Notes: generated from the sequence alone by a model not told the origin. DNA of 63,385 nt from Cyanobacteria bacterium QS_8_64_29 (GCA_003022125.1 PXQH01000007.1:1-63385); one strand, 5' to 3'; numbered from the stretch's first letter, positions 27,765 to 37,231 are shown. A program made the numbers and translations.

Positions 27765-27904
27765 GCTAGGCTGGGGCTACCCAGACAGCGGCGATCGCGA
27801 TCAGACTGCTCGCGCGCATGGAGCGGATTCCCGGCTCCCTCCGGGCGCTCGCTTGTGCTGCGCAACAATCTGGCAGGCATTTGGAATAGGGGGTGGGGGC
27901 TGTT

Positions 27905-29770
27905 ATGGTTTCGGTTCGCCTCTCGCAACGAACGCAGCCCGCCCGGGATACGGAAGCGCTAGCAACGCCCGAGCGGCAAACGGGGGCTTTTGCGCTCATC
28001 GATAGCCTCAAGCGCCACGGCGTCACCCACATCTTTGGCTATCCCGGTGGGGCGGTCCTGCCCGTGTACGACGAGCTCTACCGCGGCGACCTCAAGCACA
28101 TTCTGGTCCGGCACGAGCAGGGGGCCGCCCACGCAGCCGACGGCTACGCGCGCGCCACGGGCCAAGTCGGCGTTTGCCTAGCCACCTCAGGGCCGGGGGC
28201 CACCAACCTGGTTACCGGCATTGCCACCGCGCACATGGACTCCATTCCGCTGGTGGCCATTACCGGCCAGGTGGCGCGCCCGGCTATCGGGACCGATGCG
28301 TTTCAAGAAACCGATACCTTTGGCATCACGCTGCCGCTGGTCAAACACTCCTACTTAGTCCGCCGGGCCGATGAGATCCCGCAAACCATTGCGGATGCCT
28401 TCCACATTGCCAACACCGGCCGACCGGGACCGGTCCTGATCGACATTCCCAAGGATGTTGGGGCCGAGACGTGCGATTACGTCCCCGTCCCGCCCGGTCA
28501 GGTGCGGATTCGGGGGTTCGCACCCACCGCGAGCGGTAGCCCGCGCCCAATCGAGCGGGCGCTGCAGGCCATCGATGCGGCCGAGCGTCCCCTGCTCTAT
28601 GTGGGCGGCGGTGCCATCGCCTCAGGCGCCCACGCCGAAGTCAGCGAGCTAGCCCAGCGCTTCCAAATTCCGGTCACCACCACCCTGATGGGGTTGGGGG
28701 CCTTCGACGAGCGCGACCCCCTATCGGTGGGCATGCTGGGCATGCACGGCACGGCCTACGCCAATTACGCCGTCAGCGAGTGCGACTTGCTCGTTGCCGT
28801 GGGCGCGCGCTTTGACGATCGCGTCACGGGCAAGCTGGATGCGTTTGCCTCGCGCGCTCGGGTGGTGCACATCGACATCGATCCGGCCGAGGTAGGCAAA
28901 AACCGTGCTCCCGAGTTCCCCATTGTCGGGGACGTGCGCCAGGTGCTGCAGCAGCTGTTGCAGCAAGCGCAAGCCCAGTCGCTGCCCAGTGATGCCGAGC
29001 GGACCCAAGCCTGGCGGCACCGCATCGAGCGCTGGCGCCGGCAGTACCCGTTAATCGTGCCGCGCCCGGAAGGCGGGCTGTCGCCGCAGGAGGTTATTGT
29101 CGAGCTGGGCCGCCAGGCCCCGGATGCCTACTACACCACCGATGTGGGGCAGCACCAGATGTGGGCGGCCCAATTCATCAACGTGGGGCCGCGCCGCTGG
29201 ATCTCCAGCGCCGGCCTGGGTACCATGGGCTACGGCGTGCCGGCAGCCATGGGCGCCCAAGTGGCCTGGCCTGAGGACGGGGTCATCTGCATCAGTGGCG
29301 ATGCCAGCTTTCAGATGAACGTGCAAGAGCTGGCCACGCTGGCGCAGTACGGCATTAACGTCAAAACCGTCATTATCAACAACGGCTGGCAGGGCATGGT
29401 CCGCCAGTGGCAGCAGGCCTTTTTTGACGAGCGCTACTCCGCCTCCAACATGCAGGCGGGCATGCCCGATTTTGTCAAGCTCTGCGAGGCGTTCGGCATC
29501 CGAGGGAGCGTCGTGCGCGATCGCGCGGATCTGGAGGCCGCGGTGGCCGAGTTGTTCGCGCATGAGGGACCGGCCGTGCTCGATGCCCAGGTTACCGAAG
29601 ACGAAAACTGCTACCCCATGGTGCCGCCGGGCAAAAGCAACGCCCAGATGGTGGGCGTCCCCGAGCCAGCCAGCCCTGAAGCCACTGCCGAGCCGGTTGA
29701 CTGCAGCAACTGCGGCACCCCTAACCCGGCGAGCCACAAGTTCTGCCCCGAGTGCGGCGCCAAGATCTAG
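27905..29770 (+). CDS. ilvB: Acetolactate synthase large subunit with C-terminal zinc ribbon
   Basis: Thiamine-diphosphate enzyme that starts branched-chain amino acid synthesis by joining two pyruvates, or pyruvate and 2-oxobutyrate. The 621-residue protein shows the TPP glutamate region ([18 protein letters not shown], then [18 protein letters not shown]), the FAD domain, and the TPP motif starting GDASFQMN and ending in IINN. The last 24 residues are unusual: CX2C-X10-CX2C (C600, C603, C614, C617; CSNCG and CPECG), a zinc ribbon following the normal C-terminus ([15 protein letters not shown]). ATG 27905 starts family-like sequence. Confidence 0.94.
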
Positions 29771-33741: not shown

Positions 33742-34704
33742 TCAATCCAGAGCCGCTGCAATCTGCTGTACGGTTGCTTCCGGGGAGCGCGGCTGCCACC
33801 TCAGCTGCTGGCGAGCCTTGCTGGCATCAACGCGCACACAGCGATCATAGATGTAGTGCACGCGCTCGCGGCTGAGCGGGGGTTGCCAACCCAGCGCCCG
33901 GCCGAGCGGGTCGAGCAGGTTGCCGGCCAGGCGCACCAGGGGCTCGGGCATCTCGCGGGGTGGGGCAATCCCCCACTGCTTCCCTAGCAGCTCGAACATC
34001 TGCCGGGGGGTGAGCTCGCCGGCCGAGAGGATGTAGCGCTCGCCGGGGGTGCCCCGCTCGGCAGCCAGCAACATGGCAGCGGCCAGATCCGCAACGTGCA
34101 CGATGCCCGTCGGGCGGTCCCCGCCAGCCCAAACTCGGAGCTTGCCCTGCCGGAACTGCTGCACGATGGGGCCAAAGTGCGGATCGCCGGGACCTAGGAT
34201 TCCAGCAGGCAGCACGCTGACCGCAGGCAAGCCGTCCGCGGCGAAGGCATCCACCTGCTGCTGCGCGCGGTACTTGGTGCGATCGTAGGCTGAGCTGAAG
34301 CCAGCTTGGGTGCGCTGAAACGTTTCGTCGGCGATGCGGCCGCCAGTATCCCCCAGAACGCCGATCGTGCTGCAGTACACCACTTTGGGGACGCCAGTGG
34401 CGCGAGCGGCCGCAAGCACTTGCTGGGTGCCGGTGACGTTGGTGCGGGTCATGGCCGCTTCATCGGCCAGGCCCAGCTCGACATAGGCGGCTAGGTGAAA
34501 GACCGCGTCTGCGCCCTGCATGGCGGCTTCCAGGGTTTGGCGGTCGGTGATGTCGCCGCGCACCAGCTCGGACTGGCAGTCGGCCAGGCGATCGAGGTTG
34601 CTGCTCGGGCGAACCAAGCCCACTGCTTGGTGGCCGTTGCGCTCGAGCGCGCGGACGAGGTGGGCACCGCTAAACCCGCTTGCGCCGGTCACCAGCGCCC
34701 TCAT
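33742..34704 (-). CDS. Extended SDR NAD(P)-dependent oxidoreductase (CerR/HpnA-like)
   Basis: A 320-residue Rossmann enzyme of the dihydroflavonol-reductase/epimerase type. Seen: cofactor loop GASGFSGAHLVRAL at 7-20, VFHLAAYVELG, and the catalytic YDRTK (YxxxK) near residue 140. Its start overlaps the end of the GNAT gene by four bases (ATGA), so translation is coupled. Members include hopanoid-associated HpnA and the Caulobacter ceramide reductase CerR; the latter is suggested by the two upstream partners, not by sequence alone. Confidence 0.8.
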   Translation of the reverse strand: MRALVTGASGFSGAHLVRALERNGHQAVGLVRPSSNLDRLADCQSELVRGDITDRQTLEAAMQGADAVFHLAAYVELGLADEAAMTRTNVTGTQQVLAAARATGVPKVVYCSTIGVLGDTGGRIADETFQRTQAGFSSAYDRTKYRAQQQVDAFAADGLPAVSVLPAGILGPGDPHFGPIVQQFRQGKLRVWAGGDRPTGIVHVADLAAAMLLAAERGTPGERYILSAGELTPRQMFELLGKQWGIAPPREMPEPLVRLAGNLLDPLGRALGWQPPLSRERVHYIYDRCVRVDASKARQQLRWQPRSPEATVQQIAAALD

Positions 34705-35840
34705 AGCGCTTTCTCGTACATGCGGTAGGTCTTATAGATGCGAGCGCCCGCCGCTTCGATGGGGCGGCGCGAGGCGTAATTATCTTCAAACACCCAAGAC
34801 CCTTCCACTTGCCGGTAGCGCTTGCCGGGCTGCTTGCAGCCCTGGAAGCAGCAATACCCCAGCGCCAGCGGCACCATCTGCCGGCGGTACTCGGGCAGAG
34901 CCCCAATTGCCAGCACGCGGGCCCGGTCGATCTGGCGGCGGTACCAGAGAAACTTGAGCTTGCCCCACCAGTTCAACTTGCCATTGACATGGCGCAGCGC
35001 AATGTTGTAGTCGGGCAGGGCAATGGTCAGTCCCACCATACGTTCGCCGTCTTCGGCGACGTAGAAAATGTCGGGATCCACTAGCGATTGCAGTGATCGC
35101 GCCTGCGCCAAAAACTCCTGCTCGGTCTGGGGCGTGGCGCTCCAGTTGGCGCTAAACGCGCGGCTGTAGAGCGCGTACAAGCTGTGCGCGTCCTGCTCGA
35201 ACGCTTGGCCCTGGGTGCGAATGGGGCGCAGCGTCAGCCCCGAGCGCACGGCCACACGGTAGGCCCGCTCGAACTTGGACGGTAGCGATTGCGCCAGCGA
35301 AAAGTCGTAGGCGTAGGCATCTTTGGCCTTGTGCCACCCGAGTTGCTCCACCAGCTCGGGGTAGTAGGGCGGGTTATAGGGCATCATGAGCCGCGGCGGC
35401 GAATCGAACCCCGAGATCTGGAAAAAGCAGTTGTTGTGCGTGGCCAGATCGATGGGGCCGCGGGCCAGCCCCATCCCCTGCTGGCGCAGCCACTGGCAGG
35501 CCGCTTCGAGCAGCGCTTGCGCAGCTCCCGCATCGCGCTCGCACTCGAAAAAGCCGAACAGCCCGACATTGCGCCCTTCCCGCTCGATCAGGCGCCGATT
35601 GATAATGGCCGCGATCCGCCCGCGCGGCGTGCCATCGGCGCCGCGGGCCAAAAAGCGCTGCAGGGTACCGTAGCTAAAAAACGGGTTGTCGGGGGCGAAC
35701 TGCTGCGCCACTTCGCTGCGCAGCGGCGGCACCCAATTGGGGTCGCCGGCATAGATCCGCCAGGGCAGATCGATAAACGCCTGACGGTCGGGCTCGCTCG
35801 CGACCGGCCGAACGGCAACCTGGCGCTCGGTGCTTGCCAT
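34701..35840 (-). CDS. GNAT-superfamily acyltransferase, bacterial ceramide synthase-like
   Basis: A 379-residue protein of the long GNAT family typified by RIYAGDPNWVPPLRSE near residue 30, FGFFECERDAGAAQALLEAA, GPIDLATHNNCFFQISGFD, PPRLMMPYNPPYY and the C-terminal WVFEDNYASRRPIEAAGAR plus YKTYRMYEK. As I recall it, the bacterial ceramide synthase bCerS of Caulobacter belongs to this type and N-acylates the sphingoid base with an acyl-CoA. Gene order (synthase, GNAT, reductase) supports an acyl transfer on an aminoketone. Substrate is inference. Confidence 0.72.
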   Translation of the reverse strand: MASTERQVAVRPVASEPDRQAFIDLPWRIYAGDPNWVPPLRSEVAQQFAPDNPFFSYGTLQRFLARGADGTPRGRIAAIINRRLIEREGRNVGLFGFFECERDAGAAQALLEAACQWLRQQGMGLARGPIDLATHNNCFFQISGFDSPPRLMMPYNPPYYPELVEQLGWHKAKDAYAYDFSLAQSLPSKFERAYRVAVRSGLTLRPIRTQGQAFEQDAHSLYALYSRAFSANWSATPQTEQEFLAQARSLQSLVDPDIFYVAEDGERMVGLTIALPDYNIALRHVNGKLNWWGKLKFLWYRRQIDRARVLAIGALPEYRRQMVPLALGYCCFQGCKQPGKRYRQVEGSWVFEDNYASRRPIEAAGARIYKTYRMYEKAL

Positions 35841-35868
35841 CTTGCCTGCCTTGCCCTGGGCGAGTTGG

Positions 35869-37158
35869 CTACTGCGCGCACGCGCTGGCAGCGGTGGGGC
35901 TTAGGCGATCGCGGGTCTCCACCATAGCCGCCACCAGCCGATCCAGCTGCTCCTGGGTGTGCAAGGCATTGGCGGTGATGCGAATGCGGGGCTTGGCAAT
36001 GTACCAGATGGGCGAGACCCATACGCCGTGGACCTCCAGCATGTGCCGCCCGAACTGTTTGGGATCGATGTTCAAGGGCAAAATCACCGGGATGACGTTG
36101 GTCTCGCCCAGCACGTAAAAACCTGCTTCGCGCAGGCGCTCGCGCAGGTAGCGCGCGTTGGCTTGCAGGCGCTTGACGCGCTCGGGGGCCTGGCGCAGCT
36201 GGCGGATGCTCTCCAGGGCAGCCGCAGCCGCCGGCGGCGGTAGCGATACCGTCCCAATAGAGGTGGGCGAGACATCCAACAGCGGCTTGAGCTCAGCCAC
36301 GTGGGAGCTGATGGCGGCGCCGGCTGAGGCCCCGAACTTGGAGAAGGTGGTCAGCCTCAGCGGGACAATGCCGCGCGCGATCGCATCCTGCGGGGTGAGT
36401 CCAAAGTGCTCGTAGATGCCGCCGCCACTGGGGCCGATAGCCCCGCTGGCGTGCGCTTCATCCATTAGCAGGACGCTGCCGTCGTAGGGCGCCATTGCCT
36501 CCAAGATTTCGGGGAGCGGGGCAATGTCGCCATCCATGGAAAACACCGCATCCGAGATCACCAAAATGCGATCGCCGGGCCGGGCGTAGCGCCTGAGCTT
36601 GCGCGCCAAATCGTCGGCATCGCAGTGGCGGTAGCTTTTGGTCCGCACGGGGGGATTGTGGTTGAAGGCCTTGCCCGAACGGTTGCTGGCATTGGCAACC
36701 GCCGAGATCAGGCAACCGTGGTTGAGAATGTCGGAGAGAATGAGCGTCTCGCGCGTATGCTCGAACCCAGGCACCTTGATGGCCAGGTGGCAGAAGGCAT
36801 CGATCAGCGCTTGCGAGGCCATCCAGGCATTGAGAAACAGCTGCGTGTAGCCCAGTTGCTTGAAGGCCGAAATCTCGCCCTCGAGCTCGCGGTGCAGCTC
36901 GATGCGACCGCTGAGGGCGGAACAAGCGCTGTTGGAGGGCCCGTAGTGCTCGATCGCCGCGATCGCTGCCTGCTTGATGGCCGGATGCTGGACGAAGCCC
37001 AGGACGTCGTTGGTGCAAAACGTCAGTACCGTCTGGCGCTTCCCAGTCGCTGCCACCTCAATATCGACGAAATTGCCCTCCTTGGTATGGCAGACGTATT
37101 CGTCGGGATTGAGGTCTTGCTCGTACCAGCGCCGAACGTACTCTTTGACGGTGTCCAC
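35869..37158 (-). CDS. Alpha-oxoamine synthase family PLP enzyme (serine palmitoyltransferase-like)
   Basis: PLP enzyme joining an amino acid to an acyl thioester with loss of CO2. The 429-residue protein shows FCTNDVLGFVQHP near 47, YGPSNSACSALSGRIELHRE near 72, ILSDILNHG (His147), VISDAVFSMDGDIAPLPEI near 200, DEAHASGAIG (Asp233, His236) and the PLP lysine in TTFSKFGASAG (Lys274). GTG 37158 is preceded by AGGAGA at ideal spacing; a reading to 37308 adds a Cys-rich leader unlike the family. BioF, Kbl and HemA are alternatives, but none normally pairs with a GNAT plus SDR. Confidence 0.8.
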   Translation of the reverse strand: MDTVKEYVRRWYEQDLNPDEYVCHTKEGNFVDIEVAATGKRQTVLTFCTNDVLGFVQHPAIKQAAIAAIEHYGPSNSACSALSGRIELHRELEGEISAFKQLGYTQLFLNAWMASQALIDAFCHLAIKVPGFEHTRETLILSDILNHGCLISAVANASNRSGKAFNHNPPVRTKSYRHCDADDLARKLRRYARPGDRILVISDAVFSMDGDIAPLPEILEAMAPYDGSVLLMDEAHASGAIGPSGGGIYEHFGLTPQDAIARGIVPLRLTTFSKFGASAGAAISSHVAELKPLLDVSPTSIGTVSLPPPAAAAALESIRQLRQAPERVKRLQANARYLRERLREAGFYVLGETNVIPVILPLNIDPKQFGRHMLEVHGVWVSPIWYIAKPRIRITANALHTQEQLDRLVAAMVETRDRLSPTAASACAQ

Positions 37159-37231
37159 GGGTTTCTCCTGATTCCCAGCTCGAATTGCCGCTTGCGGACT
37201 CAGCCGGTGGCTCCCAGCCAGCCAGGCTAGC

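Follow-up and report, generated by a model that had tools for sequence, protein, structure and literature searches.

We identified in the genome of Cyanobacteria bacterium QS_8_64_29 an operon of three genes that probably (probability of about 0.66) forms the core of a cyanobacterial pathway for ceramide-type N-acyl amino-alcohol lipids, a variant of the bacterial ceramide pathway. The operon encodes an alpha-oxoamine synthase (AOS), a GNAT-type acyltransferase and an SDR. An N-acylated long-chain aminoalcohol had been proposed as the product in an initial annotation of this DNA. Gene order, the family of the GNAT and the co-occurrence of the three genes argue for such a product, although the AOS cannot be called a serine palmitoyltransferase (SPT) and the SDR is not demonstrably a CerR.

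The operon and its distribution in cyanobacteria

The window, i.e. the whole stretch of 63,385 nucleotides that was analyzed, is contig 7 of a 2.22 Mb host genome assembled in 69 contigs and has a G+C content of ~65%. The three open reading frames that the initial annotation had described were all recovered, with the same coordinates and on the minus strand (Table 1), as were the gap of 28 bases between AOS and GNAT (35841-35868), the overlap of 4 bases between GNAT and SDR (34701-34704) and the motifs TTFSKFG, DPNWVPPL, MMPYNPPYY, WVFEDN, GASGFSG and YDRTK. The GTG at 37158 matches the conserved N-terminus of the AOS homologues; a promoter scan found no promoter. Pfam assigned AOS to Aminotran_1_2 (2e-30), SDR to Epimerase (1e-39) and GNAT to Acetyltransf_1 (3e-5), the best single stretch of the latter not being significant alone. 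Elsewhere in the window (27893-29770, plus strand), an acetolactate-synthase-like protein carries a zinc-ribbon-like tail, an unusual fusion.

Table 1. Features of the operon (positions are those of the window).
Feature	Position	Strand	Length	Details
PLP-dependent alpha-oxoamine synthase (AOS)	35869..37158	minus	429 aa	GTG start
AOS residues				K274, PLP lysine (TTFSKFG); H147, D233, H236 and R393, SPT catalytic positions
AGGAG ribosome-binding site	37165..37169	minus		6 bases ahead of GTG
Tandem-GNAT N-acyltransferase, bCerS/Aca (YghO) family by homology	34701..35840	minus	379 aa	
Extended SDR, HpnA-like	33742..34704	minus	320 aa	GASGFSG, nucleotide-binding; YDRTK, catalytic; predicted 3-keto reductase

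AOS homologues with 65-73% identity were found in 80 named loci, nearly all of them cyanobacterial by name, and the order AOS-GNAT-SDR recurs in many of these, often with the identical 4-base overlap. This conservation of sequence and gene order rules out a chance arrangement. One metagenome-assembled genome with the full cyanobacterial cluster (L034) is titled Tatlockia, a Legionella relative, and is probably mislabelled or a mixed bin.

The survey across cyanobacteria that the initial annotation had proposed was run on 244 genomes of the phylum, with presence called at identities of at least 68% (E <1e-190) for the AOS clade, at least 52% (E <1e-130) for GNAT and at least 54% (E <1e-100) for SDR. 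Each gene was present in 20 genomes, the identical 20 for all three. With shared ancestry left out of account, a single match of this kind has a naive probability of 1e-29. AOS and GNAT lie at a wide distance or on separate contigs in G035, G067, G087, G095, G167 and G215, and SDR is unlinked in G017, G045 and G236. Linkage alone thus does not explain the co-occurrence, because several carriers have unlinked genes yet retain all three; contamination or mere clustering was set aside on the same grounds. The carriers fall in 12 families, two of which (f10 and f42) also include a genome without GNAT, SDR and the AOS clade. GNAT also accompanied AOS in all 16 of the named AOS-bearing genomes. The module is present in scattered cyanobacteria, rather than being an oddity of a single genome, and is almost absent elsewhere in the phylum. 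The perfect co-occurrence bears out the functional linkage of AOS, the bCerS-family GNAT and SDR as an operon, whose gene order also recurs in Rubrobacter and Streptomyces.

Clustering of the neighbors in 62 AOS loci expanded the module. A same-strand Rieske oxygenase gene lies upstream in 57 of the loci, directly so in most, and genes for MFS, GH3 and FA_hydroxylase proteins recur. None of the four was detected in the 224 other genomes at the levels used: the MFS gene is carried by 17 of the 20 carriers, GH3 by 15 (and missing from 5), the Rieske gene (at least 58% identity) by 13 and FA_hydroxylase (at least 65% identity) by 18. Elsewhere, Rieske matches were just paralogues of 34-40% identity, and six non-carriers had FA_hydroxylase proteins at 49-60%. 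The genes are contiguous in the order FAH-GH3-MFS-Rieske-AOS-GNAT-SDR in L033, L034, L036 and L082, and in Oculatella (L049) the AOS lies beside GH3-AspH-MFS, AspH being an Asp/Asn-hydroxylase that the host also has. The host carries a second locus on contig 2 (114.5-118.9 kb; L224:6568-10840) with orthologues in the order MFS-GH3-Asp/Asn-hydroxylase-FA_hydroxylase, the genes themselves spanning 114.6-118.8 kb; neither the host nor any of the three further members of its family that were surveyed has the Rieske gene. Against the OlsC model, which has a cut-off of 450 bits, the host AspH scored 254, and it resembles the OlsC/LpxO-like Fe(II)/2-oxoglutarate lipid hydroxylases. The MFS, the GH3 adenylating enzyme, the FA-hydroxylase-family protein and the Rieske oxygenase belong to the module and are new here; the three-gene scope of the initial annotation captured the core but missed these four. 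GH3 enzymes form amide bonds to amino acids, a chemistry not known from ceramide synthesis, which tells against a ceramide-type pathway.

Family relationships of the three core enzymes

GNAT is, by homology, a member of the bacterial ceramide synthase (bCerS/Aca) family, in line with the initial annotation. It aligns with E. coli YghO over 98% of its length (31.8% identity, E 6e-49) and groups in the tree with the YghO-type set with 100/100 support against a more distant GNAT group. The yghO gene (ECD_02850) has been grouped with Caulobacter CC_1154 (aca) as the acyl-CoA N-acyltransferase gene of ceramide synthesis (PMC9386255); this work links the E. coli proteins YghO and Epi to those of Caulobacter, which they replaced in our comparisons. 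GNAT is also 39% identical to its Rubrobacter homologue in the identical gene order (36-39% across Rubrobacter and Streptomyces), and homologous to GNATs beside lipid genes in Roseomonas, Diaphorobacter, Acidisoma and Sphingomonas. A search of curated families returned nothing naming the protein except a weak Acetyltransf_1, and a sequence search against solved structures gave no significant match. Structure prediction (pLDDT 78) gave a tandem GNAT, and the matches to this model include an N-myristoyltransferase and a histidine acetyltransferase crystallized with N-myristoyl histidine. The protein is predicted to N-acylate a long-chain base. More distant GNAT relatives (L142-L147; 27-33%) occur in other classes of the phylum, some in genomes that also carry an oxoamine synthase. 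On a Diaphorobacter plasmid (pDCB2, L115) and a Roseomonas plasmid (L114), bCerS-family GNATs lie beside LptF/LptG-family permeases, with CDP-alcohol phosphatidyltransferases and nucleotidyltransferases nearby; the Diaphorobacter plasmid is typed as conjugative, making this a mobile lipid locus.

The synthase is an alpha-oxoamine synthase whose catalytic residues (H147, D233, H236, K274 and R393) are invariant in its clade. To that extent the SPT-like assignment of the initial annotation stood, but AOS falls far below every NCBIfam SPT cut-off (165.7 of 640, 145.9 of 500 and 112.6 of 670 bits) and forms a separate clade. The E. coli SPT passes one such model (599.9 of 500 bits); the synthases of Rubrobacter and Streptomyces, with best scores of 443.8 and 376.9 of 640 bits, likewise stay under the cut-offs, yet fall in the tree with SPT (97/90). 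The best curated score of AOS was against BioF (229 of 426 bits), and two models of glycine C-acetyltransferase (Kbl) gave 186 of 460 and 160 of 493 bits; the SPT, BioF and Kbl labels were all rejected because these scores lie under the cut-offs.

In the tree, AOS and its relatives are monophyletic (100/100) on a branch of 2.86 changes per column, apart from SPT, Kbl, HemA and the cyanobacterial BioF-type proteins, which form a clade of their own (100/100). Union of the AOS clade with SPT (p-AU 0.28), cyanobacterial BioF (0.36) or Kbl (0.45) was in no case rejected. AOS is therefore not demonstrably SPT, and the data attach its clade to none of the three families. The initial annotation had named AOS with BioF or Kbl, and GNAT and SDR in unrelated clades, as the placement that would speak against it; AOS joins neither, and GNAT is a bCerS relative. 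Conservation within the clade is high (mean column identity 81%) and includes cyanobacterium-specific insertions shared across the clade. A pocket segment reads SNSACSALSG in AOS (SNSxCSxLSGR clade-wide) versus GTNGSRMLNG in SPT, so that Cys79/Ser80/Ala81 stand where SPT has Ser-Arg-Met, and the TFSKS of SPT is TFSKF. Hence the active-site block that the initial annotation flagged as unusual does depart from classical SPT throughout the clade, while the different substrate it read into this is suggested rather than established. An AlphaFold model of AOS (mean pLDDT 54) was set aside. On a Methylocystis plasmid, an oxoamine-synthase protein of 709 aa (L127:4047-6176) is encoded amid genes for polyketide synthase, ACP and AMP ligase.

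The SDR is not demonstrably the CerR that the initial annotation had seen in it. It is 24% identical to Epi, the reductase of the E. coli ceramide locus, and groups weakly (87/87, below the star threshold) with HpnA-like SDRs, a host paralogue and PDB 3wj7, apart from the ceramide-locus reductases of E. coli, Rubrobacter and Streptomyces. HpnA is its nearest curated model, but the score (209.5 of 367.65 bits) is under the cut-off and this label was also rejected. Caulobacter CerR is periplasmic and reduces oxidized ceramide; the cyanobacterial SDR may have been recruited independently to the same reduction step.

Proposed pathway and alternative readings

From the computed gene order, homology, catalytic residues, core co-occurrence and the physical and phyletic linkage of the helper genes, we infer the chemistry, substrates, step order and membrane role of the pathway. 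In a decarboxylating condensation, AOS would join a long-chain acyl thioester to an amino acid and so yield a 2-amino-3-ketone. We take acyl-ACP as the likely acyl donor because cyanobacteria are not known to have a large acyl-CoA pool. Unlike rhodobacterial loci, the operon is not adjoined by genes for an ACP or acyl-ACP synthetase of its own, a point against the proposal. The bCerS-family GNAT would then N-acylate the amino-ketone and SDR would reduce the ketone to an N-acyl long-chain 2-amino-3-alcohol, the order of acylation before reduction being adopted from the Caulobacter model (PMC11087976). Hydroxylation, a GH3-dependent step and transport would follow: in the host, the MFS, GH3, OlsC/LpxO-like hydroxylase and FA hydroxylase of the second locus probably activate, hydroxylate and move the lipid, with a Rieske oxygenase added in many relatives. 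Tentatively, the product may be a widespread class of cyanobacterial ceramide-like lipids made by a non-SPT AOS, perhaps from another amino acid, with GH3, the MFS protein and several oxygen-dependent hydroxylases acting in the final steps.

Indirectly, a ceramide-type product is best supported by the placement with SPT of the synthases from the same-order operons of Rubrobacter and Streptomyces. The same placement favors true serine-derived sphingolipids (3-ketosphinganine to dihydroceramide), a sub-case in which AOS is a fast-diverged SPT. This is possible, if short of probable: Scytonema julianum and Moorea producens are on record as sources of ceramides (cited in PMC8895605) and the tree tests do not reject AOS and SPT as one clade, but BioF and Kbl are equally compatible, and the long separate branch, the altered pocket segment and the change from TFSKS to TFSKF point away from SPT. 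These pocket residues and the clade-conserved insertions fit instead a second sub-case, plausible and held with similar reserve, of a non-serine ceramide analogue (e.g., a 1-deoxy product from alanine or glycine, or one from another amino acid) that acquires a head group or extra amide via GH3. The strict GH3 linkage is consistent with this, as are the OlsC/LpxO-like hydroxylase at the second host locus and the synthesis of N-acyl ornithine by the GH3 family in planctomycetes (PMC12493201). However, the choice of amino acid is not predictable from sequence, and GH3, which five of the 20 carriers lack, may activate fatty acids instead.

Two further readings leave the ceramide-type pathway altogether. 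The patchy distribution, the tailoring oxygenases and the MFS resemble a natural-product cluster, and the operon could make, instead of a membrane lipid, a specialized small molecule such as a signal or natural product that contains an amino-ketone. We consider this improbable, since the conservation of AOS and the persistence of scattered genes together across 12 families fit a stable pathway better, and the classified conserved neighbors include no PKS, NRPS or carrier protein. That AOS is a second BioF/Kbl-type enzyme of biotin or threonine metabolism with incidental neighbors is very improbable: BioF is its best curated model, but another gene of the host is BioF-like (34% identical to AOS), the cyanobacterial BioF-type proteins cluster on their own and AOS co-occurs perfectly with GNAT and SDR.

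Cyanobacterial sphingolipids and known ceramide systems

The question of cyanobacterial sphingolipids is unsettled, and the module offers a testable genetic candidate. Its co-inheritance predicts which cyanobacteria should, and should not, carry a ceramide-type lipid. Cultured carriers include Leptolyngbya sp. PCC 7375, Spirulina subsalsa and Aliterella atlantica. An uncultured genome (L054) of Scytonema, one of the two genera with reported ceramides, has AOS and GNAT. Nostoc punctiforme, a non-carrier, was found to have no sphingolipids and its sole oxoamine synthase is BioF-type (PMC8895605), which would fit the distribution found here provided that family f33, which has no carriers, is Nostocaceae. 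Spt-like genes have been reported in 38 Black Sea phyla in a study whose main text names cyanobacteria only in the title of a reference (PMC11334938). We found no description of the module in cyanobacteria in the literature searched, a body with subscription journals mostly outside its coverage. If the proposal is true, the module would give oxygenic phototrophs a further class of membrane lipid, with a bearing on the lipid biomarkers of microbial mats.

Among known systems, Spt-bCerS-CerR of Caulobacter (CC_1162, CC_1154 and CC_1164) comprises the same three enzyme classes in the same predicted roles, and its acyltransferase shares the CC_1154/YghO family with GNAT. In the cyanobacterial module, however, AOS lies outside the SPT clade, the SDR does not group with the ceramide-locus reductase, no AcpR or AasR is adjacent and an MFS, GH3 and hydroxylase tailoring set is present. 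The E. coli ceramide locus (spt-acpR-epi-aasR plus yghO) has a GNAT homologous over its full length, but also its own ACP and acyl-ACP synthetase and a reductase of just 24% identity. In Rubrobacter radiotolerans and Streptomyces sp. NBC_01001, plasmid-borne operons have the same order and tight spacing, and differ in their SPT-clade synthases and in their flanks (an LTA synthase family protein; a condensation-domain protein). Npun_R3567 of Nostoc punctiforme, an earlier SPT candidate among cyanobacterial alpha-oxoamine synthases, belongs instead to the BioF group and is without SPT activity (PMC8895605), and the AOS clade is distinct in the tree from such proteins. Lastly, planctomycete OlsH, a GH3-like lyso-ornithine lipid synthetase, has the GH3 family and a lipid context in common with the module, whose GH3 scored 98.7 bits against the OlsH model (cut-off 620).
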